Origin: Ilex aquifolium
Lineage: Eukaryota > Streptophyta > Magnoliopsida > Aquifoliales > Aquifoliaceae
Reading direction: 5' to 3'
Assembly (NCBI GenBank): GCA_951799425.1
Contig: OX637391.1
Span: 12,100,551 to 12,164,550, forward strand
Length of the DNA stretch: 64,000 nt
A model generated the notes under the pieces. That model saw only the letters and a list, made by a program, of their open reading frames with translations, had not been told where the DNA came from and made no database searches. Shown here in pieces: positions 1 to 62,900 of the stretch. Both the position numbers and the translations under genes were made by a program. The stretch's first letter is position 1. The number at the start of each line of letters is the position of its first letter.

Positions 1-3000
1 TCTCTGATTGGGTCCATCCAACTCGGATGGCCCAATATAGGGAACATTTTTTTCTTCGTGGCTCCTCGATGGTTTAGCTAGGTGCTCTACTGGGATTAAC
101 CTGTCCAGACTCTCCTAAGAGGTCGTTGCAAGTCTTGCTAAAGCATCTGCTCGAGAATTCTCAGTTCTGGGGACATGCTTGATTTTGACTTGTATGAATT
201 TCTTTATCAGTTTTCGCACCTTTTTCAGGTATAGGATCATCCTCTCTCCCTTAGCCTCATAGGTCTCTTCTATTTATTTTACCACGAGTTGGGAATCGCC
301 ATAGATTTCGAGTTGTTTTGCCTCCATTGAGTGGGCCAGATTGAGTCCAGCGAAGACAACTTCATATTCTACTTCGTTGTTTGAAGCCTTGAAGCCGAAT
401 TTGAGGGCATACTCGACATCTATTCCATCAGGGGAGGTCAGGACCAACCCCACATCGCTTCCTTGGTCGTTGGCAGCTCCATCTACTAAAAGCTTCCATG
501 TAGGGAGGTCGGGTACTAGTTGGGTCGCCTCCGTAGGTGCCTCTGTGGCTGTAGTGAATTCTGCGATGAAATCTACCAGAATTTTTCATTTGACTGCGAT
601 TCTAGGTTTGTACCTGATATTGAACTCACTGAGCTCTATGGCCCATTTGACTAGCCTTCCTAAAGATTCTGGCTTATGCAATACCTTTTTCATTGGTTGG
701 TCCGTCGAGACCTCAATGATGTGAGCTTGAAAGTATGGTTTGAGCCTTCTTGCTGTCGTAACTAGAGCTAGGAATAGTTTATCCATCCTTGGATATCTCT
801 CATATGTCCCCCTTAGAGCTCTGCTATAGTAGTAAACTGGTTGCTGAGCTCTGTCTTGCTCTCTTACTAGCACTGTGCTGGTTGAGAAATCCGAAACAAC
901 GAGGTAGAGGGTGAGCACTTCCTCCTCCAAAGGACTTACCAGAACTGGGGGTGAGCTTAGATAATCTTTGAGGGCTCTTAACGCTTATTCACATCGGGTA
1001 TCCCATTGGAACGCCTTTTTTAAGGTTTGGAAGAAGGGTTGACACTTGTCGCTTGATCTGGAGACAAAGCAAATTAGGGCCGCTATTCTTCCTTTTAAGC
1101 GTTGGACCTCTCTCATGTTGGAAGGTGGTTGCATGTCCATCACTACTTTGACTTTTTTTGAGTTTGCCTCGATTCCCCTGTTGTTGACTATGAATCCCAA
1201 GAATTTGTCAGCAGAGACCCCAAAGACACATTTGACGAGGTTGAGCTTCACCTTGTATTCCTTGAGGACCTGAAAAGATTCTTCAAGGTACCCAATGTGG
1301 AGCTCAGCTTTCAATGATTTTACCAGCATATCATCGATGTACACCTCCATTGATGTTCCGATTTATTTTTAGAACATTTGGTTTATCAAGCGCTGGTAAG
1401 TAGCTCCAACGTTATTCAGTCCAAAGGGCATGAACTAGTAGTAGTATGTCCCCTGCTCGGTTACGAATGAGGACTTCTCTTGGTCACTGGGGTCCATTCT
1501 GATTTGGTTATACCCAGAAAAAGTGTCCATAAAGCTGAGGAGCTCATGCCTAACTATGACATCTACAATTAGGTCAATCTGAGGTAAGAGAAAAATGTCT
1601 TTAGGGCAAACTCAGTTTAGGTTAGTGAAGTTGATGCAAAGGCGCCACTTGCCATTGACCTTCTTGACGAGGATCATGTTTGTTAGCCAGGTCAGATAAC
1701 CCACCTATCTTATGGCCTTGGTGTGAAGAAGTTTGTTAACCTCCTCATTGATTGCTTTTTGGCGTTCTGGGGCAAAACTCCTTCATTTCTGTTTGATGGG
1801 CTTGAAGGTTGGATTCACGCTGAGCTTGTGTGTGATGACTGAGGGGTCAGCTCCATATTTCTTATGAGTAATTGAATCAGGAGGTTTCTAATTTCCTTGT
1901 TTAGCTTAGATCCCAAGTATACCAGGTGTTCTGGTTTCTCGTCAAGCTGAATAGGCTCTAGCTTTTCTAATGGCAGTGGCCTAGTTTCCAACTCGTCTCT
2001 CATGTCGAGCTTGTCCAGCTGGATATTCTCGACCTTTTTCTTTTTCATAGACGCCATGTAGCACTCTCGTGCTACACGCTGGTCTCCTCGGACCACTCCA
2101 ATTTCGTTTTTCGTAGGGAACTTCATGACAAGTTCGTAGGCAGAAGGAATAGCTCTCATGGCATTGAGGGAAGATCTTCCTAGCAGAATGTTGTATGCTG
2201 AAGGTGCATCGACCACTAGGAACCTCACAATGGTAGTGGACTAACAAGGAGGATCCCCCATTATGAGCATGAGCTGGATTGAACCCAGGGGTAGCACCCT
2301 TTCCCTTGAGAATCCCAAGAGGTGAGCACTTACTGGCTTAAGTTTATCTCTGCCTATATGTATCTTGTTGAAGGCAGATGCGAATATGATGTCCGCAGAG
2401 CTCTCGTTGTCAATAAAGATTCGATGAACAATCCTATTGGCGATGATGACCTTTACCACCAAGGGGTCATCATGAGGATGCTGACAGCCCTCTAGGTCTG
2501 TATCTGTGAAAGTGATGTCCATGTTCAGCTGAGGTGTTTTGGACACAGTGTGTACTTCCAATATCGCTTCAGCTCTTCCTGGCTGAGCTGGACTCTCCGC
2601 CTCCAGTGAATCCTTTGGATATCACTCTGATTTCTCCTAGATGTTGTTAATGTTGTGTAGGGTTTTGTTGCTGGGGTGCTAGAGGTGGTTGAGCTCGGTT
2701 CTGATTGTCTTGCGCCACAAAGCGGCGTTGTTGTCCTCGTTGGATTAGGAACTCGATCTCATTCTTTAATTGGATACAGTCATCAGTAAGATGACCGTGA
2801 TCCCTGTGGTATTCGCAGTATTTCGTTGCATCCCTTTTCGTGGGATCTGCCTTCATTCGAGGTGGCCACCTCAGGAATTTTTCATTCTGAATCTCGTAAA
2901 GGACCTGGGACATTATGGCTGTGAGGGGAGTGTACGGTCGAGGTGCAAATTTAGGCTGTAGTTCCTACGGTGGTGGACCAAGACGGTCTCTGACATCTCA

Positions 3001-4848
3001 TCTCCTTTTCGGAGAGCGGTTCGTGTTTCTTCGTGGAGATCTATCTCTATTTCTTTCTTTTCTGGGACTTCGATCTCTCTTCTTCTCCTTCTCCTTGTGC
3101 ATGAACGTGTTCCCTACCTTGGAGAGGAGTGCTTCTGCGCCATTGATGTACTTTTCTGCCTTGGCGAGGATTTCTGCCATACTGGCCTGCGGGTTTTTTG
3201 AGATAGAGAACATCAGGTCGTTTGAATGGATTCCCAATTCTGCAATAAAGGCAGTGATGGTGAATTTTTCGTCAGGGACATCCACTTTCAGGGATTCGGA
3301 GTTGAACTTTTGAACATAACTCCGCAAACTTTCATTGGGTCCCTGTTTCACATTCAACAGATGATAACTCGATTTTTTATAAGTCCGAGCTCCTATGAAG
3401 TGCGATACGAAGGAGACGGAGAGCTCTCTGGAGGATGAGATGGATGCTGGGGGCAGCCTATTGAACCATGCCAGGGCTAAACCTTTCAAAGTGATGGCGA
3501 AGGCCCGACATCGTACCGAGTCCTGGTACCCCATGTAGCTCTATTTGATTCTTCTAGGTGTTTGAGGTGGTCCATAAGATCTTTTGTTCCATCGAAGGCC
3601 TTCATCTGGAACATTCTGAATTTAGGTGGGAATGGAAAGTGCAACACTTGTGCGGTAAATGGGGACTCAGTCTGTTGAACTAAGACTTCCATAGTCACTG
3701 GAGTTTTACTTTTAATAGCCTCCTTCATGTGGTTGAGCTCCTGTTGAATGTCTTTGAAGCGTTGCTCCCAATATAGTTCTTTCTTTTCCTGTTGAAACAG
3801 AGGAAATTCATTATTACGAGCTTCTCTACTTTGACTTTGTACTTCCTTGTCATCCTCATTCCTACGAATTTGATGATGAGCATTGCCCACCGTTTGGCTG
3901 CGCTCATCTCCCTCAGTGATGTCCCTCAAGGGGTTGTTGTGCTGTCAGTCCCTCTGAAGGGGATTGTCTTGGGCTGGCTGAGCCCTTTGTGGATGCTGAA
4001 GGATATTCAGCAACTCCTCATTTTGTTGGAGGAGACATTGATTGGCTAGGCGAAGGGCCTCCAATTCATTGTTAGGTGCAGGATTCACTCTGGGGGGATC
4101 GACTTCAAGTGTAGGCAAAAAGTTATGGGGATTTTCTTGCTGCCTCCCAGTGGTAGCTTCTTGTTGGTTTTGTAATTGAGGAAGATTCGCTTGTCCTCTG
4201 TTCATGTTGCTTGTAGAAACCATCAATTACTGAAGGAGATCAGTATATTTTTTAACTTGAAACAGTCTTTGCCACAGATGGCGCCAACTGATGATGTTCT
4301 TTTCATAATTGAGCAATGATGTGGATTTAAAGTGCTCTAAATGGTGGGATTTGGATCAATCTGAGCTCCAAGGCTCTTGGGAATAAGATTTTCTGAATAA
4401 TTGGGGGGGGGGGTCACACATAGTGTTTATAGTGGTTCACTAGCTCGAGAGCTTGGCTAATCCACTCTCAAGAGAGTCTCTTGCTCCTGAATATATTAAT
4501 CAATTGGATGTAGTTTACAGAGAGTGCTTTTCTAGGCTACAATGGCTATATCGCCTCTTATTTATAGATATTCCTAGGGTTTGCTTGATCTGGGGCGAGA
4601 TCCTCGCCCCTTAGCTGTAACAGTTCCCCCTTATTGCGCAACGAGACTTGTGCCAGTTGGGTGATTGACGCCATAAAGATGGAGGACTTGGTGGGATCTA
4701 GCTGTCCTTTGAACGAACTTCTGTGAGGTATGGATACAGGGAGTTGAAGTTTGAGGTTGAGGCCCACAAGTGATACTGATGAGCTGAGCTCCTGAGCTGG
4801 ATAACCTGGGGAGCCGAGCTCATCCTTAGATATTTTGTGGTACCATCA
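1..4848 (-). mobile_element. Ty3/gypsy LTR retrotransposon, Tat-like, broken, cut by window edge
   Basis: This is a fossil element read on the minus strand. It has one LTR (4289-4848), a primer-binding site (about 4270-4288), a gag region (about 2650-4226), then aspartic protease, reverse transcriptase and RNase H regions running to the left edge. Seen directly: a gag core at 2998-3534, a Cys/His-rich stretch near 2770-2840, a protease-like stretch near 2400, the YIDDML-type reverse transcriptase motif near 1330, and RNase H sequence at 586-930. A second RNase H-like region at about 1-550 (DGAANDQGS and EVEYE motifs) is the archaeal-type RNase H domain that marks the Tat/Ogre/Retand lineage. 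The coding part carries many breaks (of the order of ten or more), so it looks dead. It inserted into an older copia element. The second LTR and its target duplication lie outside the window. Confidence 0.88.
4289..4848 (-). repeat. LTR (5' LTR) of the gypsy element
   Basis: The LTR is 560 bp and, on the minus strand, begins TGATGGTACC and ends CATCATCA. The primer-binding site TGGCGCCATCTGTGG follows directly at 4272-4287. A TATA-like TATAAATA lies on the minus strand near 4560. It contains an 11-base G run at 4403-4413. The flank on the right, GTTGG at 4849-4853, should be the target duplication, but its partner is outside the window. Confidence 0.8.
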
Positions 4849-9926: not shown

Positions 9927-10384
9927 TTTTTGTGATACAATCCAAGCACCGCCTTTGTATAAGATATCTCTTAGCTATATGTATCATCCTAATTCGAATT
10001 AAAGGATCACATACGGGGCGAATAGCTGTCGTAATTTTTGTTGCTTTCGTCATTCTGATATGCACAAGTACGTGCACAAAACCCCATTCCTCCCCTGTAC
10101 GAGACCGCAATTACCACCGCTGCAACGCCTTCTACGTCATCCCTCTCTCTCTCTCTCTTTCTCTCCTTTCTCAGGTTTGTGTCTGTAACCCTATAATATC
10201 TATGTATACATATTTGCAAAGTACATATCATAGATGCATGTAAATTATACCCTAAACACGAAAAACTTCAACTAGTTCCTCAATTGACAATTAGCATATT
10301 CCAGTACTGAAACCCCAAACTTCAAATTAGTACCATTGAAACCCACAAAACCTTTGGTATTCGCAACCCTTGTAGCGTTCATTC
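9927..10384 (+). promoter_or_regulatory. Upstream region and 5' leader of the PP2-A10-like gene
   Basis: This is the 458 bp between the last nested MITE and the start codon. It includes a CT-rich stretch at about 10141-10175 typical of plant 5' leaders. CTTTCTCAG|GT near 10170 resembles a splice acceptor, so a leader intron is possible. No clear TATA box was identified. The proximity of the MITE means the promoter may include element-derived sequence. Confidence 0.4.
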
Positions 10385-11668
10385 ATGTCTTCTATGGATT
10401 TGCAACTGGTGAAGAAGGGTTTGGACTATACCCGAAAAAGAAAGAAGTGGGCTTTTGTATTTGCAGCTTTGGGTTTTACCAGTTACAGTGTGTACAAAGT
10501 TTATCACTCACCTTCTGTGGTTAGGAAGAGGAAGAGGTTGTTGAAACTGTTTAGTGCTCTAATTTCTGTTGCCGAAATGGTGTTCGATTCCGCTGAGGCC
10601 ATAGGAGTTGTCTCAAAAGATTTAAAAGAATTTTTACAATCAGATTCCGATCAAATTCCCAATAGTTTGAGGCAAGTCTCTAAGATTACAAGATCAGATG
10701 AGTTTTCGGAGTCTCTGATTAGGATCACAAGGGCTTTAACTGTGGGAATTTTGCGAGGCTATCGGTCTGAAGTGAAAAAAGGTGGTTCTACCGGTGGTGA
10801 TTCAAGGTTCTCTGACCGGGTTTTCGACAAACTGTTTACCCCAGCTGGGTCTGGTTTTTCTTCAGTAGTTGTTGGGAGCTTAGCCAGGAACTTGGTTATT
10901 GGTTTTTATTCGGAAACGCAATATGGTGGAGGATCAAAATTGAATAGTTTCACAAATGTTGAGAACTTTGATTTGGAATCCCCAACTGTTCCAAGATGGG
11001 TTGATGTGGTATGTGGCGAGAAGTGCAGAGAACTTATTGGGGATTGCATCCAAGTGATTGTGAGCACCGCGGTTGCTGTTTATCTTGACAGGACAATGAA
11101 TATCAACACCTATGATGAAATCTTTTCGGGGTTGACTAATCCCAAGCACGAAACGAAAGTGAGAGAAATGTTGGCATCAGTTTGCAATAGTGCAGTAGAA
11201 ACTCTTGTTAGAACTTCTCACCAAGTCCTGACAAGTCCTAATTCAAATTCGTATTCCTCTTATTTACCTGTTGATCTTCGACAAGGTCTGAATTGTGTTA
11301 AGCAGAAGCTCGATAGACAAGAATCCATATCAATTGAATTGAAAGCAAGAAAATTATTTGATAAGAATCTGAATAGTGGGTGGGTGAGTAAGATGTCTTC
11401 TACTCTGGCAGTACCGAGCAATAGGAGGTTTGTTCTTGATGTAACCGGCAGGGTAACTTTTGAGACAGTTAGATCTTTCCTGGAGTTTTTGGTGGAAAAG
11501 ATTTCTGATGCTTTGAGAAGAAGTCTTGATATTTTTCAGGAGGAGGTGGTCGACCGGGGACTTGAAGTTTACAGATATTTCACTGCAAAAACTTCTACTG
11601 TTGTTACTATTTGTGTTTCTTTGTGTTTGCACATATTGAATGGTCCTTGGGTTTTGGTTCCAACTTGA
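10385..11668 (+). CDS. PHLOEM PROTEIN 2-LIKE A10-type protein
   Basis: This is a single-exon ORF of 427 residues. It resembles the plant family annotated as Protein PHLOEM PROTEIN 2-LIKE A10, whose molecular function is not established; despite the name I see no clear PP2 lectin domain. It begins with a basic stretch (KKGLDYTRKRKKW), then a hydrophobic segment at about residues 22-40 (WAFVFAALGFTSYSVYKVY) that could be a membrane anchor, then basic RKRKRLL. The central region (about 50-350) is mixed helical. A second hydrophobic segment lies near the C terminus (TVVTICVSLCLHIL, about 404-418). The start is the first ATG, with another Met at residue 4. The ORF is intact, and downstream there is an AATAAA at 12247-12252. 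Family identity is from memory; membrane placement is inferred. Confidence 0.85.
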   Translation: MSSMDLQLVKKGLDYTRKRKKWAFVFAALGFTSYSVYKVYHSPSVVRKRKRLLKLFSALISVAEMVFDSAEAIGVVSKDLKEFLQSDSDQIPNSLRQVSKITRSDEFSESLIRITRALTVGILRGYRSEVKKGGSTGGDSRFSDRVFDKLFTPAGSGFSSVVVGSLARNLVIGFYSETQYGGGSKLNSFTNVENFDLESPTVPRWVDVVCGEKCRELIGDCIQVIVSTAVAVYLDRTMNINTYDEIFSGLTNPKHETKVREMLASVCNSAVETLVRTSHQVLTSPNSNSYSSYLPVDLRQGLNCVKQKLDRQESISIELKARKLFDKNLNSGWVSKMSSTLAVPSNRRFVLDVTGRVTFETVRSFLEFLVEKISDALRRSLDIFQEEVVDRGLEVYRYFTAKTSTVVTICVSLCLHILNGPWVLVPT

Positions 11669-43108: not shown

Positions 43109-43285
43109 ATGCCACAATTGCAATTTTATACCCAAAATACCCCTTGTGGACCACCCCAAACTCAATTTTATATCCAAAATGTCCCTGAGTGGACCACCAC
43201 CTCAGCTTCCCAATTGTCCTTAAATACCGCCACCCTACCACTCCTTTCTTCCCTTTCCTCCTCCAACCTTCCTCCCTATCTATAA
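43109..43285 (+). other. Possible upstream ORF of the bZIP gene, 58 codons
   Basis: The ATG at 43109 opens an ORF that ends 14 bases before the main start. Its first half carries a duplication of about 46 bp (CAATTTTATACCCAAAAT against CAATTTTATATCCAAAAT). It does not resemble the sucrose-responsive SC-uORF of S1 bZIP genes. Whether it is in the mRNA depends on the start site; a TATA-like TTTAAAG lies near 43072. Confidence 0.35.
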
Positions 43286-43299
43286 GCGGTTTTCCAGTC

Positions 43300-44028
43300 A
43301 TGCTGTCCACCGTTCCAACTACGCTTTCCTCCGAGGGATTGTTCGCAATCCCATTTCCAGATTTCCAAGGCGGTTTTACGCCATGGGATTGTCAAGAATC
43401 CTATTTTGATTTTCAACACCAAGATGGAGAACAGTTTTTTTGCCTAAATCAAACACAAAAACCGGTCTTATCTAATTCCGGTTCAGAGAACTCACACCCA
43501 ATTTTGCTTAGTCCCAATTCCGGTTCAGATAACTCGAATCTAATGCCTCTTAGTCCAAATTCCGGTCCATATGAGCAAAACCCAATTTCCCTTAATCCAA
43601 ACTCCGGTTCAGATAACTCAACCCCAACTCCCCTCAGTCCAAACTCCGGTTCAGATGAACCGAACCGGAAGAAAAACAAGTCAAGGTCCTGTTCGGAAGA
43701 ATCTAACCAGACGGTTTCTGTAATTGACGAACGAAAACAGAGGCGGATGATATCGAACCGGGAATCAGCAAGGCGGTCCCGGATGAGGAAACAAAAGCAT
43801 CTGGAGAACTTAAGGAACCAAGCGAGCCGGCTTAAGATCGGAAACCGGGAACTTGCGAACCGGCTGCGTGTGGCTACTCATCAGTGCCAACTACTTGGAA
43901 ATGATAACCACCAGCTCCGGTCCGAGGCCGTTATGCTCCGGCAGAGACTATGGGACATACGTCAAGTTTTGCTTTTTCACCAACTTCAACAGCAGTTATC
44001 AGAAACCCCACAACCATTAATCACGTAA
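43300..44028 (+). CDS. bZIP transcription factor, group S-like
   Basis: This intronless gene encodes 242 residues, a nuclear DNA-binding regulator of ACGT-core promoters. The basic region is at residues 144-164 (ERKQRRMISNRESARRSRMRK) with the invariant N-x7-R spacing (Asn153, Arg161). The leucine zipper follows with heptad positions Leu171, Leu178, Leu185, Ala192, Leu199, Leu206 and Leu213, so one heptad is Ala. Intronless structure and an extended zipper fit group S (bZIP42/43-like). Start choice: MLSTVPTTLSSEGLF at 43300 looks like the usual N terminus of these proteins. An in-frame ATG at 43189 would add 37 residues without family features. Residues 59-128 are five 14-residue repeats of the NSGSDN..PLSP type, which is unusual. 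The gene looks intact. Confidence 0.93.
   Translation: MLSTVPTTLSSEGLFAIPFPDFQGGFTPWDCQESYFDFQHQDGEQFFCLNQTQKPVLSNSGSENSHPILLSPNSGSDNSNLMPLSPNSGPYEQNPISLNPNSGSDNSTPTPLSPNSGSDEPNRKKNKSRSCSEESNQTVSVIDERKQRRMISNRESARRSRMRKQKHLENLRNQASRLKIGNRELANRLRVATHQCQLLGNDNHQLRSEAVMLRQRLWDIRQVLLFHQLQQQLSETPQPLIT
43474..43683 (+). repeat. In-frame 42-bp minisatellite inside the bZIP gene, five units
   Basis: Five units encode NSGSENSHPILLSP, NSGSDNSNLMPLSP, NSGPYEQNPISLNP, NSGSDNSTPTPLSP and NSGSDEPNRKKNKS. The DNA unit is kept at 42 bp so the frame is preserved. The last unit is only partly matching. Confidence 0.9.
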
Positions 44029-49621: not shown

Positions 49622-52208
49622 TTAGATCATCTTAATCTTCTTTGCAATTTCCAATGCATCATTGTCTGGCTTCAACTTAACAAATGCTTTCTTGGTACCA
49701 TCACGCATAACCAAGGTATTCACTTTCTTGCTCTGAATGTTGAACATCTTTTTGACAGCATCCTTTATATTACTCTTGTTGGCACGTCTGTGTACTGTAA
49801 AAACCAAAGTGTTATTGTTGATAATAATCTTCAACGTGGACTCAGTAATGTGGGGATATAGGAGAATCTCGTTGCAGTCAAGCTTGTCCCTTGGAGCTGC
49901 AGTTATGTGAGGATAGAGGGACCTTCTATCTTTCTTTAATTTCTTTTGCAGATGGAATGCAACTGATGTTTGAATCTTCTTTGCCTCCTCCTCGAACTTT
50001 GATGAGTCCAATTTCACTTCCCCGACCACCTTCGAGGCCTGTATCTCAGGATCAGCCTGCTTCGAAATGCCAATTTCCGAAGGAGATATTGATTGCATGA
50101 AAATTCCATCCAGAAATGAGAAGCTAGGAAGCTCCTCCTGCAATCAGTATTGGATTATTCAGATTAGTTTGAACCTACATATTAACAAGAGAAAGAGAGA
50201 GGGACATCTTCAAGAATCAAGACTACTACAACCAAAAGTTTATTGTATGTCCACAATAGTAAAATCATGTGTAGACTCTCTCTCTTCAATTTATTTCTGT
50301 TTTGATGTCTTTCAATACTTGGTGCACTTTTCACGATGGAGATGTCTAATACACCATCCATATGAACAAGAAATTTGAACTTCCAAGGTTGTTTCAGAGT
50401 GTATCCAATCCCACTACAGAATACAAAATGAGCTTACCAATGTCATATATATCCTGTGCGATGACCAAATTCGTCAAAGCTAAATAAAGGTTGCATTTCA
50501 ATACATCCTCCTCAAAATATGAGTCCAATTTCATCCCTACTTTGTTCAATCTCCAATCTCTGTTTCAGTCCTCTCAACATTCTTTCCTTTGCCTGTGATT
50601 TGGCGGGTGTGTTTTGGGCTGGGGGGAGTGGTGGTGCCCTTTCTCATATTTCCTTAATGTTTAATGAATTATGGAACCAAAATATCTTTCAGAAAGCTTA
50701 AAGCCGTTGCATTTAGGTAACAAAGGTCAGAACGAATAAGCAATCATAATTCAGGACATCATGACCTAGAGGTCCTGGACAAGAAAATGCATCAAATACC
50801 TGCAGTCATAAATAAGAGCAGTGTTGGCCAACCAGGGTTGGATAAACAGAAGGAACTGGAATGCTATATTGGAGAAAGACAGATAAGATGTTTCAGAATC
50901 CAGACATAGTAACAAGTATGTAGCATTAAAGATGACTACTTATAATACCAAGACATTCACAGCCTGTATTCTACTGTCGGCATTCCTACTTAAAAGATTT
51001 TCAATATTGATGATGAAGCAATACAAAGGATATGCCTTTGTATTTTAGAAACTCATATTCAGCCATATTTGTACACTGGAGAACCCATGCTGATCCAACC
51101 ATACATCATTAAAAAAAATTCTTAACTAGCCCACCTTAACCAGTGGTTGGAGCATTCTGAAATTTTTTGTTCTTTGATGACTTCAAATTGAGATCTCAGC
51201 ATTCTCAGAGACAAGAAACCAAAAAACTGTTCCGGAATTAGTTGTCCCCCATCCCCCTCTTCCCTCCCTCTTCTCATTGAGCATGTTCAGTACTGAGTCA
51301 AGGTATAATGGAGAGCCCTAAATTTGTATCGGAGTAGACATTATCAGGACCATTTAGCATACCTTGGCCCACTACCTGCAGTCTGCAATTTCTCTTGGTC
51401 CGGAATAGATGTGCAATCTATTAAATTATGGAATTACGCACCCAAAAAATTTTGACAATTCCTATGAACCTTCACACAATTGGTTCTTCCATTTAGACCT
51501 GTTAATTTCATAGAAATTCAGTTTTGATGTTATCCTAATTTCCTGAGAAACTTAAAAAAATAATAATAATAATATTACCATGATATTTTACATATAGCAG
51601 TTATCTCTACAAGAGGAACAAACAACCTGAGTTAATAGTTCAAAACTTCTCAGACATTGATGTAATTCAAAACTAGAGAACAACTTTTAAGATGAATAAA
51701 CTTGCCATGTGACCCTTGACTCCTTGTTATAACATATTATTGTAATTTAGAGTTTTTTTGTCAGACTTCAAACTTTTTGGTCATGTCATTTGGCCTTCAA
51801 CAACATGTTTTCATGTATATTAAGCTCAGCAAGTACAATCATAAAGCATTTCCATAAGATACACAGTTCAACCAGTTTTGCCATTGAACTAAACAACAAA
51901 CACATGATGTGCAATCATAAGATCATCTCACAAAAAATCAACATTTATTGAAGCTTTTAGGATCAGCTATGAGGGTGGGGGAAGGGAAGACAAGATCATA
52001 CCGTCTGGCTCTGGTAGTTACTGATCGTGGAAAATGAGTCCCTCCTGGAATGTGAAGCCAACCTAAATGAAGAGCCAAAGATTAGTCCTTTTGGTGTAAC
52101 CAGAGCCCTTGTGATTGGTGCTGAAGTTCTGAAACTACAAATCTTTAGCTGGCTGATCGTATTTGAAGCAAAAGCAGCGGTAGAAGCCATAGCCAGTGGA
52201 GTTGCCAT
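49622..52208 (-). CDS. Cytosolic-type ribosomal protein uL23 (L23a) with predicted plastid transit peptide, two exons
   Basis: Exon 1 (52208-52002, 69 codons) encodes a Ser/Thr/Ala-rich, almost acid-free N terminus (MATPLAMASTAAFASN through SHSRRDSFS), typical of a chloroplast transit peptide. Exon 2 (50137-49622, 171 codons plus TAA) starts at TTGCAG|GAGGAG and encodes the whole eukaryotic uL23/L23a core: KKIQTSVAFHLQKKLKKDRR, YPHITAAPRDKLD, NNTLVFTV, IKDAVKKMFNIQSKKVNTL, DGTKKAFVKL and a C-terminal AKKIKMI. Donor ACG|GTATGA and the acceptor are both phase 0; the intron is 1.86 kb. A stop two codons before the acceptor and the lack of an N-terminal ATG show that exon 2 must be spliced to something upstream. 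uL23 lines the peptide exit tunnel of the large subunit. In spinach a cytosolic-type L23 has replaced the plastid protein. The joining of these two exons and plastid location are inferred. Confidence 0.75.
50138..52001 (-). other. Intron of the uL23-type gene
   Basis: 1864 bp, GTATGA at the donor and TTGCAG at the acceptor, with a branch-point-like CTAAT about 28 bases before the acceptor. I found no clear additional coding exon in it, but short exons cannot be excluded. Confidence 0.6.
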
Positions 52209-52714
52209 AACAACAACGGGCACTGTTTTGGTTGAACGATTGCATAGGGGAGAGAGAGAGAGACAGAATCAAGAAAGTAAAATAGGGTTTTGGGTTTTGG
52301 AGGGGATGGATTTTACAACGGAGAGCCTCTGGAGGCTCACGCCAAGCATTTTGTTAATTACACATTGTAACCCTAAACGATCACTTTTATCTTATTTTAT
52401 CTTTAAACTACTAAATTGTTAACATTAGTCCTCCAAGCACTTAAAATTGTTTACATTAGTCCTTCAACCACTTAAAATTGTTTCACGTTAACACAAACAC
52501 AATTGCCTACTATCTCTCAAATGAAAAATATTAACGTGTCGGAGTAAAGTGAAACAACTATTTATTAAATTGCAATGTGAAAATAAGGGTAAATAATATA
52601 CATATACATTGAGATTTGTCATTTAATCACATAAATCTCCTCACATTTTAAGGCAAGACTTGTTCTAAAAGGGTTTATCCAGAAATAGAGAATCGATTAT
52701 GAGAAAAAAAAAAA
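52209..52714 (-). promoter_or_regulatory. 5' leader and upstream region of the uL23-type gene
   Basis: A GA/CT-rich leader (about 52250-52265) precedes the start codon. An ATG at about 52239 on the minus strand opens an overlapping out-of-frame upstream ORF of about 36 codons. Further out (about 52370-52540) are three imperfect copies of an ATTAGTCCTYCAA-type motif resembling MITE sequence. Confidence 0.4.
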
Positions 52715-54044
52715 ATTTCAGTAGCTACGCTAAAATCTATCCGAATTCTTGTAAACATTGTGGCTCATCTCGATTATGATATTTGACAAATGAACATCAA
52801 GACAATATTTTTTAATGGGAATCTTGATGAGTGAATCTATATGATGCAATCATATAGATTTATAGCAAATAATCAAGAGTATCTAGTGTGCAAATTTAAG
52901 AGGTCCATTTATGGACTTAAGTAGACATCTAGGTCTTGGAACATTTATTTTGATTAGACTAAAACATCTTATGATTTTGATCAATGCCTGGATAAGTCAT
53001 ATGTGTATAAAAAAACGTGACGAAAACGGAGTGATATTCCTAGTACTTTATGTAGATGATATATTGCTCATTAGAAATGATGTGGGGGTATTATCTCCTG
53101 TTAGAGTATGGTTATCCAATTTGTTCGATATGAAAGATTTGGGAGAAGCTAACCACATCCTTAGAATCCAGTTTATGCGAGATTGCAAGGATAGGACGTT
53201 AGACTTATCTCAAGCTACCTATATCAATACCATTCTAACCCGTTTTAGCATACAAAATTCTAAGAAGGGATTTCTTTCTTTTAGACATGAAGTTTCTCCG
53301 TCAAATGAGCAATGTCATAGAACACCTGAAGAGATAGAGAGCATAAAGATAGTTCCTTATGCTTCGACAATAGGAAGTCTCATGTATGTTATGCTTTGTA
53401 CTAGACCTGATATCTTCTTTGTCGTTAGCATGGTGAGTCGATACCAATCTAACACTAGGCAATAACATTTGACTGCAGTAAAATATATTTTCAAGTACCT
53501 GAAAAGGACGACAGATTATATGTTGGTTTAACAGGTAGATAGTCTAGTGCCCCTCGAGTACACAAACTCTAATTTTCAGTCAAATAAAGACTCCATGAAG
53601 TCTACTTCAGAATATGTGTTTACTTTGAGAGGTGGATCCATAAGTTAGAGGAGTATCAAGTAATCTTGTATTGTTGATTCTAGGCCGAATACGTGGCAGC
53701 CTCTGAGGTAGTCAAAGAGGTAGTTTGGCTCAAAAACTTCCTTTATGGATTTAGAAGTGGAATCTTTGGTAAGATTGGCTATTACACTTTATTGTTACAA
53801 TAGCGAAGCGATTGCTAACTCAAAGGAATCACGAACCCATAAGAAGGGAAAACACATTGAGCATAAGTATCATCTTATACGAGACATCGTGGGAAAAGGT
53901 GATGTAATGTGACCAAGATTTCATCAACAAATAACCTGGCAGATTCCTTCACAAAGAGTTTACTGGCAAAGACTTTTGACAGTCATGTGGAGGGAATGAG
54001 AGTTAGATATATGACATCATAACTTTGAGTATAAGTGGGAGAAT

Positions 54045-57839: not shown

Positions 57840-58315
57840 TTTGGGGACCCATGAGAGAGTCTTTAAGCTTAAGGTATAGGTTACTTGCTTGAGAGCAGAG
57901 CAGAGACCAAGCTTTTGGGGCTTTTGGCGACTCGTGAGAGGGCCACTAAGCTGGAGATAGACTGCCTGCTTGAGAGCAGAGCAGAGATAGGCCAAAATTT
58001 TTTGGCGACCCGCAAGAGAGCCTCTAAGCTGGAGATAGGCTGCCTGTTTGAGAACAGTGCAGAGGCCAAGTTTTTTGGCGACCCGCGAGAGAGCCGCTAA
58101 GCTGGAGATAGGCTGCCTGTTTGAGAACAGTGCAGAGGCCAAATTTTTTTGGCGACCCGCAAGAGAGCCGCTAAGCTGGGGTTAGGCTGCCTGTTTGAGA
58201 ACAGTGCAGAGGCCAAGCTTTTTTGGCGACCTGCGAAAGAGTCGCTAAGCTGGAGTTAGGCTGCCCATTTGAGAACAGTGTAGAGGCAGGTCAATCTTTT
58301 GGCGATCCGCGAGAT
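57840..58315 (-). repeat. Tandem array of about six 74-85-bp units in the gag-only element
   Basis: Each unit contains GGCGACCCGCGAGAGAGCC, GCTAAGCTGGAGATAGGCTG and GAGAACAGTGCAGAGGCCAA or close variants. Outer units have diverged more than inner ones. The array ends at the 3' end of gag. Confidence 0.88.
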
Positions 58316-59288
58316 GATTCACCTCGCCTAGACCTGTTGATTTCCTCAGCATTCATATATTTTTGAGGTTTTGGCAATAGTTCTGGCATGCTCTTTGGAG
58401 GTCGCTTCATTACTGAAAAGAGGAAGCTTGATGACCGGAGGCCTCCCAAGAAGGCGGTCATGCTGACCTTTTCATCGCGCTCCTCAACCTGAATGACCTC
58501 CTCGTTAAAACGAGTGAGGTAACTCCTTAAACTCTCATCTCGGTCCTGCTTTATGCTGAGCAGGTGGGTGGCAGACTTCTGGTGGCGGCGTCCTCCAATA
58601 AAGTGTGATACGAAGGACTTGCTCAGCTCAACAAATGAGCCAATGGAGGCTGGGGAGAGCTTGAAGAACCATTGTCGAGCAGATCCCTTCAAGGTGGTTG
58701 AGAACGTTCTACACATAATTTCGTCGGGAACGTTGTGCAGTTGCATCAAGGTCTTAAAAGTTTCAAGGTGGTCCAGTGGAGACTTCCTACCATCAAAGGT
58801 CTCGACGGATGGCATCTTGAATTTCTGAGGAAGTTGATAGTTTGCCACGTCAGGTTTGAAAGGTGTGTCGGTTCGACTTACGAGGTAGTCCACTGTCTCG
58901 GGTCCCCGTGCCTTTATGACGTTGAAGACGTCACCCAATTGATTTTGTACCTCCTTAATTTTTCATTCCACTGATTGGGAGGAGGTCCTCTGGAATTACC
59001 ACGAAAATGACTCCCATGCTCCGTGCTTTGGTTTTCACCCTCATCCTCTTGGAGATGAGGGTCTCCACCATGGGGAGCAGGAGCAGGGGCTGGAAGAGGA
59101 GGTCCCTCATGGTGGGCCCCCCTTGGCTGGGCGCCCAAGGGTGGGGCGCCCGGAGGGGGAGCTTCTTGATGATCAGGGAGTGGAGCTCCCCTAGCTTGAG
59201 GTCCGGGCTGAGCTCCTCCTTGTTGCCCGAGCATTAACTGCAGAATCTGTTGGTTCTGGGCTATAAGTTGTTGCATGGTGTCCAGCAT
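58291..59288 (-). mobile_element. gag region of the gag-only element
   Basis: This is a Tat-type retrotransposon gag: a Pro/Gly/Gln-rich N-terminal part (about 59040-59270) followed by the gag core (DHLETFKTLMQL, ARQWFFKLSP, VSHFIGGRRHQKS, DESLRSYLTRFNEE; about 58370-58830). It would form the particle shell. The same core, more divergent, is seen in the gypsy element at 2998-3534. No protease or polymerase follows it, so any movement would need enzymes from another element. Confidence 0.85.
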
Positions 59289-59990: not shown

Positions 59991-62900
59991 CTTATCAACT
60001 TTGGTAAAAACTAGAGAGTCTCTGTGAGTGCAAGACTGCATAGAATAAAACTTTTATGATCCGAAGGCTTGTGAATTTGAAGTATAAGGATGAATATAGT
60101 GTTTGTGGAGCATATGAATAATTTTCAAGAATTGTTGAATGAGTTGTCCACCATAAAGCTTGTGCTCGAGGACGAGGTGCAAGCATTACCTTTATTGAGT
60201 TCCTTACCAGATCATTGGGAAACCCTAGTTATGTCGTTCAGTAATTCGGCCCCTAATGGTGTGACCACTATCAATATAGTGAAAGAAAATATGTTTAATA
60301 AAGAGACCAGAAGAAAAGAACACGATATTTCTTCTAATTCAGAAGCACTTGTGTATACAAGATGGGGAGAAGTAAAACTAAAAATTATGGTGATAGTAAT
60401 CGTGACAAGTCAAGAGAAAAAGTCCAAGTCAAAAATTGGATAGTCTAGAAAAGGGATAAAGTGTTTTTATTATGGCAAACTTGGGCATTATCAAAAAGAG
60501 TGCACAAAGTCGAAACGATAAAAAAAAAAAAAAGAAAGATAAAAATAATACTACAGCAGTTATAGTCAAGACTCTACTTGGATAATTCATACAACAACTT
60601 CCTTTCATATTATTGCACGTAGAGATTTCTTCTCCTCCTATTCCAGTGGTGACTTTGGTTGGGTTAGGATGGGAAACGAAGCAAAGTGCAAGATTGTGGG
60701 CATTGAAGATGTATTGCTAGAAACTAGCATTGGGTGTAAATTGTTTCTCAAGAATGGCAGACATATTCTAGAAATGCACATAAACTTGATTTTCATTGGA
60801 AAACTTGATGATAAAGGCTACTATAATCACCTTGGTGATGAAAATTGAAACTTAGCAAGGGTTCTCTTATCTTAGGCAAGGGAAATAAGATTAACACTCT
60901 CTACCAAACAAAGGTAAATATAATCAAGGGTGATTTAATGTAGTTGAGCATGATTCTTTCACAGAGCTATGGCATAAAAGACTTGGTTATATGTTTGAGA
61001 AGGGACTCCAAATTCTTGCTAAAGAATATCTCCTACCTGACATTAAATGTATGCCACTAAAACCTTGTACTCATTGTCTTGTTGTAAAACAAAATAGAGT
61101 TTCATTTGTCAAATTCCCTCACTCTAGAACATATAATGTTTTGGATTTAGTTCACACTGATGTCTATTTTAGGAATGCTAAATCTCTTGGTGGTGCATTA
61201 TATTATGTGACTTTTATTGATGATCACTTTTGAAAAGTGTGGCCATTTGCTTTGAAAACTAAAGATCAGGTACTAGATGTATTCATAGCTTTTCATGTGA
61301 AAGTTGTAAGGGAGGCAGTAAGGCAACTAAAGTGTGTCCGAGCAGATAACGGTGGTGAATATCGGTGATGTTTTGAAGAGTATTGTAGAAACAATGGTAT
61401 CAGGCTTGAGAAGACTATTCCAAAGACTCCACAACATAACGAGGTAGTAAGGAGAATAAACATAATGATTTGTGAGAGAATTAGATGTATGCTCTCTAAT
61501 GCAAAATTGTCTAAATATTTTAGGGGCGAGGCGATAAGGACAACTGTTGATTTGATTAATCTTTCTCCGTCAGCTCCTTTGGATGGTGCTATTCCTGAAA
61601 GAGTTTAGACAGGTAAGATTTTTCTTTTAAGCACTTGAAAGTGTTTGATTGCAGGGTATCTATTCACATTCCTAAAGATGAGAGATCCAAGCTTGACATC
61701 AAGGCTACACAGTATATCACGAGCAAAAAAAGAATAAAGAAAAGGATACCCAGTATATCTTCTTGGGTTATGCACATGAAGAGTTTGATTACAGATTATA
61801 GGATCTAGTTGGTAGGAAAATTGTTAGAAGTAGAGATGTTGTTTTCTTTGAAGGCCAAACCATTGAAGACTTGGAATGGACTAAAATTTCAAAGTCATCT
61901 AGAAAGGAACTTGTTAATTTGGGTCTAATTTCTCCTTCATCTATTATGCATGATGATCACGAGGGAGATGTCTAAGAAGAATAGGTCGATACATTTGATG
62001 AAAATGGTGACCTAACAATTAATGTTGATGAAGTATCTGTACTTGATCCTGTAGAACCAAAACTTCCATAGCTAGTCCTTCCGAAGTCACCTCAATATGT
62101 AAAGCTAGCTACTCCAGAACTAACAGTTGAAACTTAGTTAAAAAGATCTACGACAGAGTGTCGACCTCTCAGACAACATTCTCCTGATGAATATGTATTG
62201 CTCAGAAATGGTGGAGAGCCTAAAAGTTATGAATATGCTATGTCAAATATTCAGAAGAAGGAGTGACAGAAGTTCATGCAATACGAGTTCGTGAAGCTAC
62301 CTAAGGGTAAGAGAGCACTCAAGAATAAATGGGTATTTAGATTGAAGGTTAAATCGAATAGCTCATAGCCCAGGTACAAGACAAGACCGATTGTGAAAGA
62401 ATTTGGTCAGAAATAGGGCATTGACTTTGAAGAGATTTTCTTGTGGTAAAAATGTCTTCTATTAGAGTTGTTTTCATCTTAGCAGTGAATATGAATTTAG
62501 AGATTGAGTAGCTTGATGAAAATACTATTTTCCTCCATGGTGACTTAGAGGAGGAAATCTATATGGAGCAAGTAAAGGCTTCACAGATAAAGGCAAAGAG
62601 GATATGGTGTGTAGTCGATTGAAAAAGAGTTTGGATGGACTCAAGTAGACATCAATGCAATGGTATAAGAAGTTTGATTCTTTTATGGTTAACTAGGGTT
62701 ACACCAGGACTACTACTGATCATCGTGTATTTGTTAAGAAATTCTCAGGTGGAGAATCTATCATTCTCTTACTTTAAGTAGATGACATATTGATAGTTGG
62801 TCGTGACACTAGTAAAATTGATTCATTCAGTAATTTTTTTGCTATGAAAGATTTGGGACTGGCAAGGCAGATACTCAGTATGAAAATCTATCGTGACAGG

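Follow-up and report, generated by a model that had tools for sequence, protein, structure and literature searches.

A 64,000-nucleotide stretch of chromosome 1 of the holly Ilex aquifolium (12,100,551-12,164,550; "the window" denotes this whole stretch) carries an old retrogene of cytosolic uL23 (RPL23A), which lies downstream of an exon whose coding frame it continues. The resulting gene appears to encode a divergent eukaryotic-type uL23 joined to a transit-peptide-like presequence, an assignment supported by domain matches and by composition. The explanation that we favor, though with slightly less than even confidence, is that a retrocopy of cytosolic uL23 arose in the holly lineage and was spliced to an upstream exon that would supply an N-terminal plastid transit peptide. 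The product would be a nuclear-encoded, eukaryotic-type uL23 that probably enters plastids. There, it would either vie with the bacterial-type uL23 encoded by the plastid or add to it, and the outcome would be either a dual set of proteins or a replacement that was never completed. Transcription, splicing, import and incorporation into plastid ribosomes are steps that we infer.

The gene lies on the minus strand. The coding part of exon 1 (52002..52208) starts with an ATG at 52208 and ends, after 69 codons, with a phase-0 donor at its final base 52002. It is followed by a GT...AG intron of 1,864 nt (50138..52001) and by exon 2 (49622..50137), which consists of a 48-nt linker (50090-50137) and 468 nt comprising 155 codons and the stop. 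The frame is kept from exon 1 through exon 2 to this stop, and the spliced open reading frame has 240 amino acids. An in-frame TGA lies immediately inside the intron, past the donor. The donor (ACG/GTATGA) and the acceptor (TTGCAG/GAGGAG) reach the 97.4th and 95.8th percentile among the GT and AG sites of the same strand, as scored with a consensus table for splice sites. Ten open reading frames within and around the intron were tested, and none had a Pfam family above cutoff. The gene model of the initial sequence-only reading, with a phase-0 donor 1.86 kb before a phase-0 acceptor, a stop just inside the intron and a complete eukaryotic L23a core in exon 2, was thus confirmed on re-reading, apart from its claim that exon 2 lacks a start codon of its own. 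An in-frame ATG does occur in exon 2 (50096..50098, minus strand; protein FMQSISP...), in the weak context TTTTCATGC, three codons before the site of the ancestral L23a start, which, by alignment with the cytosolic copies, is now ATA (Ile; 50087..50089, minus strand).

The exon-1 ATG has the start context GTTATGG and is preceded by two upstream ATGs. The nearer one (52243..52245, minus strand) is out of frame, has a weak context and opens a 36-amino-acid upstream frame that overlaps the main start; the other lies farther away, at 52349. The two may impede translation of the main frame.

The retro origin of the gene follows from a comparison with its relatives in the holly genome. Fourteen matches came from a genome search with the L23 family model; upon reading, they were sorted into the window gene, four cytosolic genes, one retrocopy on chromosome 8 (C8), two genes with exons of a presumed mitochondrial type and six fragments that resemble plastid rpl23. 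Here as in our other genome searches, only the best candidates are scored, such that absence means not found among those. The cytosolic L23a genes (C18, C1:53.18 Mb, C9 and C15), as modeled from the DNA, have two introns each, the first in phase 1, a single base past codon 5, and the second in phase 2, within the codon for the Arg of LIR. The 468-nt part of exon 2 is collinear with these genes and free of gaps over its 155 codons, and it runs across both intron positions without an intron; hence, the window gene is a retrogene. No match to remnants of the parental 3′ UTRs was found, as would be expected for an old copy, and comparison of the exon-2 linker with the four cytosolic 5′ UTRs gave p values of 0.26, 0.04, 0.52 and 0.54. 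The genome was found to hold one intact copy of the window-type retrogene. A second intronless cytosolic L23a copy is present at C8:15575081-15575560. It is C9-like, reads open from a MAPAK start of its own and is far nearer to the cytosolic copies than the window copy is.

While the window copy belongs to the same family as the four cytosolic proteins, it has moved a long way from them. The Pfam model Ribosomal_L23 (PF00276) matches the spliced protein with 50.6 bits (cutoff 30.8), whereas the model of the eukaryotic N-terminal domain (PF03939) stays below its cutoff (17.9 versus 27). In a search against solved structures, the top six matches are plant-type cytosolic uL23 proteins with 131-151 bits. 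Amino-acid identity is 57.1% to the C18 and 56.5% to the C1 cytosolic copy, in agreement with the earlier statement that the protein has diverged from ordinary L23a; the peptide LDCNEILLYPHITESTLK belongs to this protein. Relatives elsewhere were of no use, since there was a single Bacteroidetes match (42% over about 50 residues) and a further search came back empty.

The N-terminal tail of the window copy has a net charge of +3, whereas the holly cytosolic copies, which have two introns and lack an N-terminal extension, carry +19 (three copies) or +20 (one). The tail is thus more acidic than in cytosolic L23a, as the sequence-only reading had noticed. The basic tail has been lost while the core has kept the same number of Lys and Arg residues (18) as the cytosolic copies. 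Both charge values occurred jointly in 0.03-1.7% of neutral simulation runs, in a test chosen after the pattern had been seen.

Exon 1, which begins MATPLAMASTAAFASNTISQL..., has the composition of a transit peptide, as previously proposed. Its residues 1-55 contain no Asp or Glu, 15 Ser or Thr and six Lys or Arg, and the first charged residue is residue 22. Among the 92 ATG-initiated open reading frames of at least 55 amino acids in the window, it is the sole one to satisfy a simple transit-peptide rule, a rule that was defined after exon 1 had been inspected. Judged on composition, exon 1 is therefore a plausible plastid transit exon. A second copy of it, which could have pointed to a donor gene, was found by neither protein nor DNA search among the best-scored candidates in the genome, and the N-terminal 110 amino acids gave only two chance-level matches to solved structures.

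The region upstream of exon 1 contains two telo-box-like motifs, at distances of 81 and 167 nt from the ATG. The motif AAACCCTA (52283..52290, minus strand) occupies the stretch 75-82 nt before the exon-1 start codon, and AACCCTA, in the opposite orientation (52369..52375, plus strand), about 165 nt upstream. In the 400 nt upstream of the cytosolic L23a genes, two of the four have two such boxes and the other two have one. Stretches of 400 nt with two telo boxes make up 2.4% of the window. Across the window as a whole, the excess of telo boxes is not significant (six versus 3.0 expected; 11 of 100 shuffles reach six), and what stands out is only the pair that precedes the gene. A TGGGCY motif was also tried and then left unused.

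The foremost alternative, which we consider unlikely but take seriously, is that the retrogene is losing its function, with exon 1 being a chance frame or a relic, the product unneeded and the whole in slow decay. Codon models bear on this directly. They gave an omega of 0.06 on the cytosolic background (0.02 for its core) and of 0.62 on the window branch, a rise with 2 delta lnL of 32.2; the value of 0.62 does not differ significantly from 1 (2 delta lnL 2.06), as decay would have it. In a two-part model of the window branch, omega was 0.84 for the N-terminal tail and 0.51 for the core, which is borderline when compared with neutrality (2 delta lnL 5.99, 2 df). A mixture model assigned strict constraint to about 27% of sites and an omega of 1 to the remainder, and it gave no indication of positive selection. 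A six-codon insertion of the C15 cytosolic copy was removed before fitting, and the tree topology was in part set beforehand; of four positions compared for the window copy without its sister copy (see below), two tied as best. The pattern of substitution also speaks for decay. Residues at positions invariant among ten eukaryotic uL23 proteins were kept at 43 of 69 positions, and variable positions match the C18 copy at 39 of 71 (the C8 retrocopy, retroC8, being excluded from this count), such that invariant positions are barely better kept than variable ones, which counts against constraint.

Against decay stands the frame itself, which shows neither a stop nor a gap in 155 codons. In neutral simulations that started from two of the cytosolic copies, the frame was free of stops in 0.1-3.3% of runs (a range that spans all settings tried), and this is before indels are counted. 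A slow decay would likewise sit poorly with the unchanged number of basic residues in the core, or with a transit-peptide-like exon that is matched in phase, has good splice sites and is preceded by telo boxes.

Further evidence on both sides comes from a sister copy on chromosome 8. A DNA search with exon 2 retrieved two degraded pieces (C8:5146506-5146733 and C8:5147428-5147545), which are broken by stops and frame breaks. At derived sites, i.e., where the window copy differs from all four cytosolic copies and these four agree, the window base is present in the C8 pieces in 26 of 57 cases, with about 5.6 expected by chance; codons 60-74 overlap both pieces and may count twice in this figure. 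In addition, the neighbors are collinear. A bZIP gene of the window (43189-44028, plus strand; an open frame of 279 codons) has its homolog at C8:5141914-5142498, and a gene with a 430-amino-acid frame (10376-11668, plus strand) has one at C8:5103958-5118962; together with the retrogene, they are ordered and oriented as in the window. The derived bases in common and the collinear neighbors identify the broken C8 copy as the sister in a duplicated block, and the retrogene hence predates the segmental duplication. The block could most simply have arisen by whole-genome duplication.

That this sister is dead fits decay, and the broken frame of a processed pseudogene is indeed seen in the sister; it is absent in the window copy. 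The history of the sister lineage points the other way. In a model that includes the sister, omega was 0.58 on the stem, 0.73 on the window branch and 0.28 on the sister branches, the latter being significantly below 1 (2 delta lnL 8.97), though it may be biased downward because stop codons and gapped codons in that broken copy were treated as missing data. No exon 1 was found within approximately 3.9 kb upstream of the broken copy, and the transit peptide may thus postdate the retrogene, or the sister may lack it. Altogether, we read the gene as one that was probably functional for a long time and now evolves fast, though a loss of function may also be under way.

Several other features of the window were recorded alongside. 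The 430-amino-acid frame has no Pfam match; near full-length relatives are found on C16 and C12 (59% identity), a 233-residue piece on C3 is 90% identical, and its partner in the C8 block is split over about 15 kb. A fragment of a copia-type (RVT_2) reverse transcriptase lies at 52887-53465 (plus strand), which places it roughly 0.7 kb ahead of exon 1. Fragments of LTR retrotransposons are found at 585-3540 (minus), 58291-58962 (minus) and 60081-60443 (plus), and they contain a copia-type gag, two Retrotrans_gag frames and RVT_1 with RT RNase H. Neither an Rfam nor a tRNA scan of the 64-kb window gave a match.

If the presequence does direct import, the destination need not be the plastid. It might lead to mitochondria or to both organelles, the protein then acting beside or instead of the mitochondrial uL23; dual targeting is common, and the richness of exon 1 in Ser, Thr and Ala with few acidic residues would suit either organelle. 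However, the first charge comes only at residue 22 and there is no early Arg, features in which exon 1 is unlike typical mitochondrial presequences. Moreover, L23 exons of what we presume to be the mitochondrial type occur in two genes (C8:18.51 Mb and C20), so that mitochondria probably own their uL23. We therefore judge a mitochondrial destination to be rather improbable.

We give about as little credence, or a touch less, to a divergent cytosolic or nuclear uL23 translated from exon 2, with exon 1 unused. The in-frame ATG at 50098 would yield a near full-length protein. However, besides its weak context, it is preceded within exon 2 by an out-of-frame ATG at 50109, and a loss of the charge of the N-terminal tail would be surprising in a cytosolic protein, given how strongly the cytosolic copies are constrained.

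Returning to a uL23 that enters plastids, the question is what it would meet there. The sequence-only reading had raised the possibility that holly has undergone an organelle-ribosome replacement. This is contradicted at the level of the genus by the accessible text of the Ilex plastome papers: rpl23 is entered twice in a study of seven species that treats I. pubescens in depth (PMC4932625), again twice in one of 19 species (PMC7933167), ycf1 being the sole pseudogene named in these parts of either, and twice in a further Ilex gene table (PMC8922745). The gene list of Helwingia, which is related to Ilex, likewise includes rpl23 in the portion available (PMC5131622). Going by these sources, plastid rpl23 is thus neither lost nor a pseudogene in other Ilex species, and a finished replacement of plastid uL23 is rejected for the genus. 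The retention of rpl23 also favors decay of the retrogene. Intact plastid rpl23 together with a dN/dS near 1 in exon 2 was the combination that the earlier reading had set against its own proposal, and it is partly what we find: rpl23 is reported as retained in the genus, while the omega of 0.62 is neither near the background value nor significantly below 1. A nuclear plastid-targeted RPL23 of Ilex was not named in the titles and abstract openings of the literature matches listed, in which subscription journals are thinly covered.

The holly assembly itself is less informative on this point. Copies of plastid rpl23 occur in 24 places, some adjoining rpl2 or trnI-CAU (e.g., C1:57130371-57130604 and C11:5459393-5459632), and none of these 24 rpl23-like matches is full-length and open. 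However, its neighbor rpl2 is equally decayed (34 matches). The missing open rpl23 therefore says nothing about the present plastome, and since neither an intact rpl23 nor an intact rpl2 was found, the plastome seems to be absent from the assembly. The nuclear copies of plastid DNA thus failed as a test of replacement, the rpl2 control having decayed likewise. From 20 rpl23-like loci, 14 were compared with the tobacco gene and three were aligned in full; the lesions of these three are unshared, which suggests that the plastid source was intact at the time of copying. A full replacement as in spinach, in which the plastome of I. aquifolium itself would have a broken rpl23 or none, would fit the architecture of the window gene and the lack of an open rpl23 among the 24 matches, but in view of the twofold rpl23 entries in the available text on seven (PMC4932625) and 19 (PMC7933167) Ilex species, the unshared lesions and the equal decay of rpl2, it is very improbable.

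The reading that we prefer, an imported eukaryotic-type uL23 beside a retained plastid gene, allows a further and more speculative step. Holly plastids might contain two kinds of large subunit that differ in their uL23, which would be the bacterial, plastid-encoded protein with its exit-tunnel hairpin in the first kind and an imported eukaryotic protein that lacks the hairpin in the second, and the retrogene and the plastid gene might have coexisted since before the segmental duplication in the Ilex lineage; we regard this as distinctly doubtful. If true, it would be a long-lived state before gene loss, and one could ask whether a hairpin-less eukaryotic uL23 can coexist with bacterial uL23 in the plastid ribosome pool. 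A retargeted uL23 and a retained rpl23 in one lineage would reveal the order of events, with import coming first and loss later or never. If, on the other hand, the gene is decaying, it would be an example of a failed substitution.

In spinach, cytosolic uL23 reportedly took over from plastid rpl23, as described by Bubunenko in 1994. The accessible literature agrees with the statement of the sequence-only reading that the cytosolic protein replaced plastid L23 there and that spinach plastid rpl23 is a pseudogene; both the spinach replacement and a uL23 substitution in Geranium are cited in the available part of PMC8941745. According to PMC5071890, spinach uL23c has a transit part of about 76 residues and a mature part of residues 77-198, and the bacterial tunnel hairpin is absent. 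Like the window gene, spinach uL23c (Q9LWB5; PDB 4v61, 5mmi, 5h1s) is nuclear and combines a eukaryotic-type core with an N-terminal transit peptide, which in holly is putative. Going by the alignment, the window protein would be of the same eukaryotic kind. Bit scores give no support to a shared origin of the two, as cytosolic uL23 scores higher: against 6eri_AT, over 88 residues each, the window protein reaches 71.4 bits and a plant cytosolic uL23 (PDB 9vtg) 97.1, and against the 198-amino-acid spinach chain, the values are 69.6 bits over 90 residues and 102.5 over about 110. Another parallel is Hypericum ascyron, for which the same portion of PMC8941745 describes a nuclear transcript of cytosolic-type RPL23 with a predicted plastid transit peptide alongside a plastid rpl23 pseudogene. 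The holly gene resembles it, but where plastid rpl23 is a pseudogene in spinach and broken in Hypericum, it is, as far as these sources go, reported as retained in Ilex. Spinach and Hypericum would thus already have passed the stage that holly may still show.
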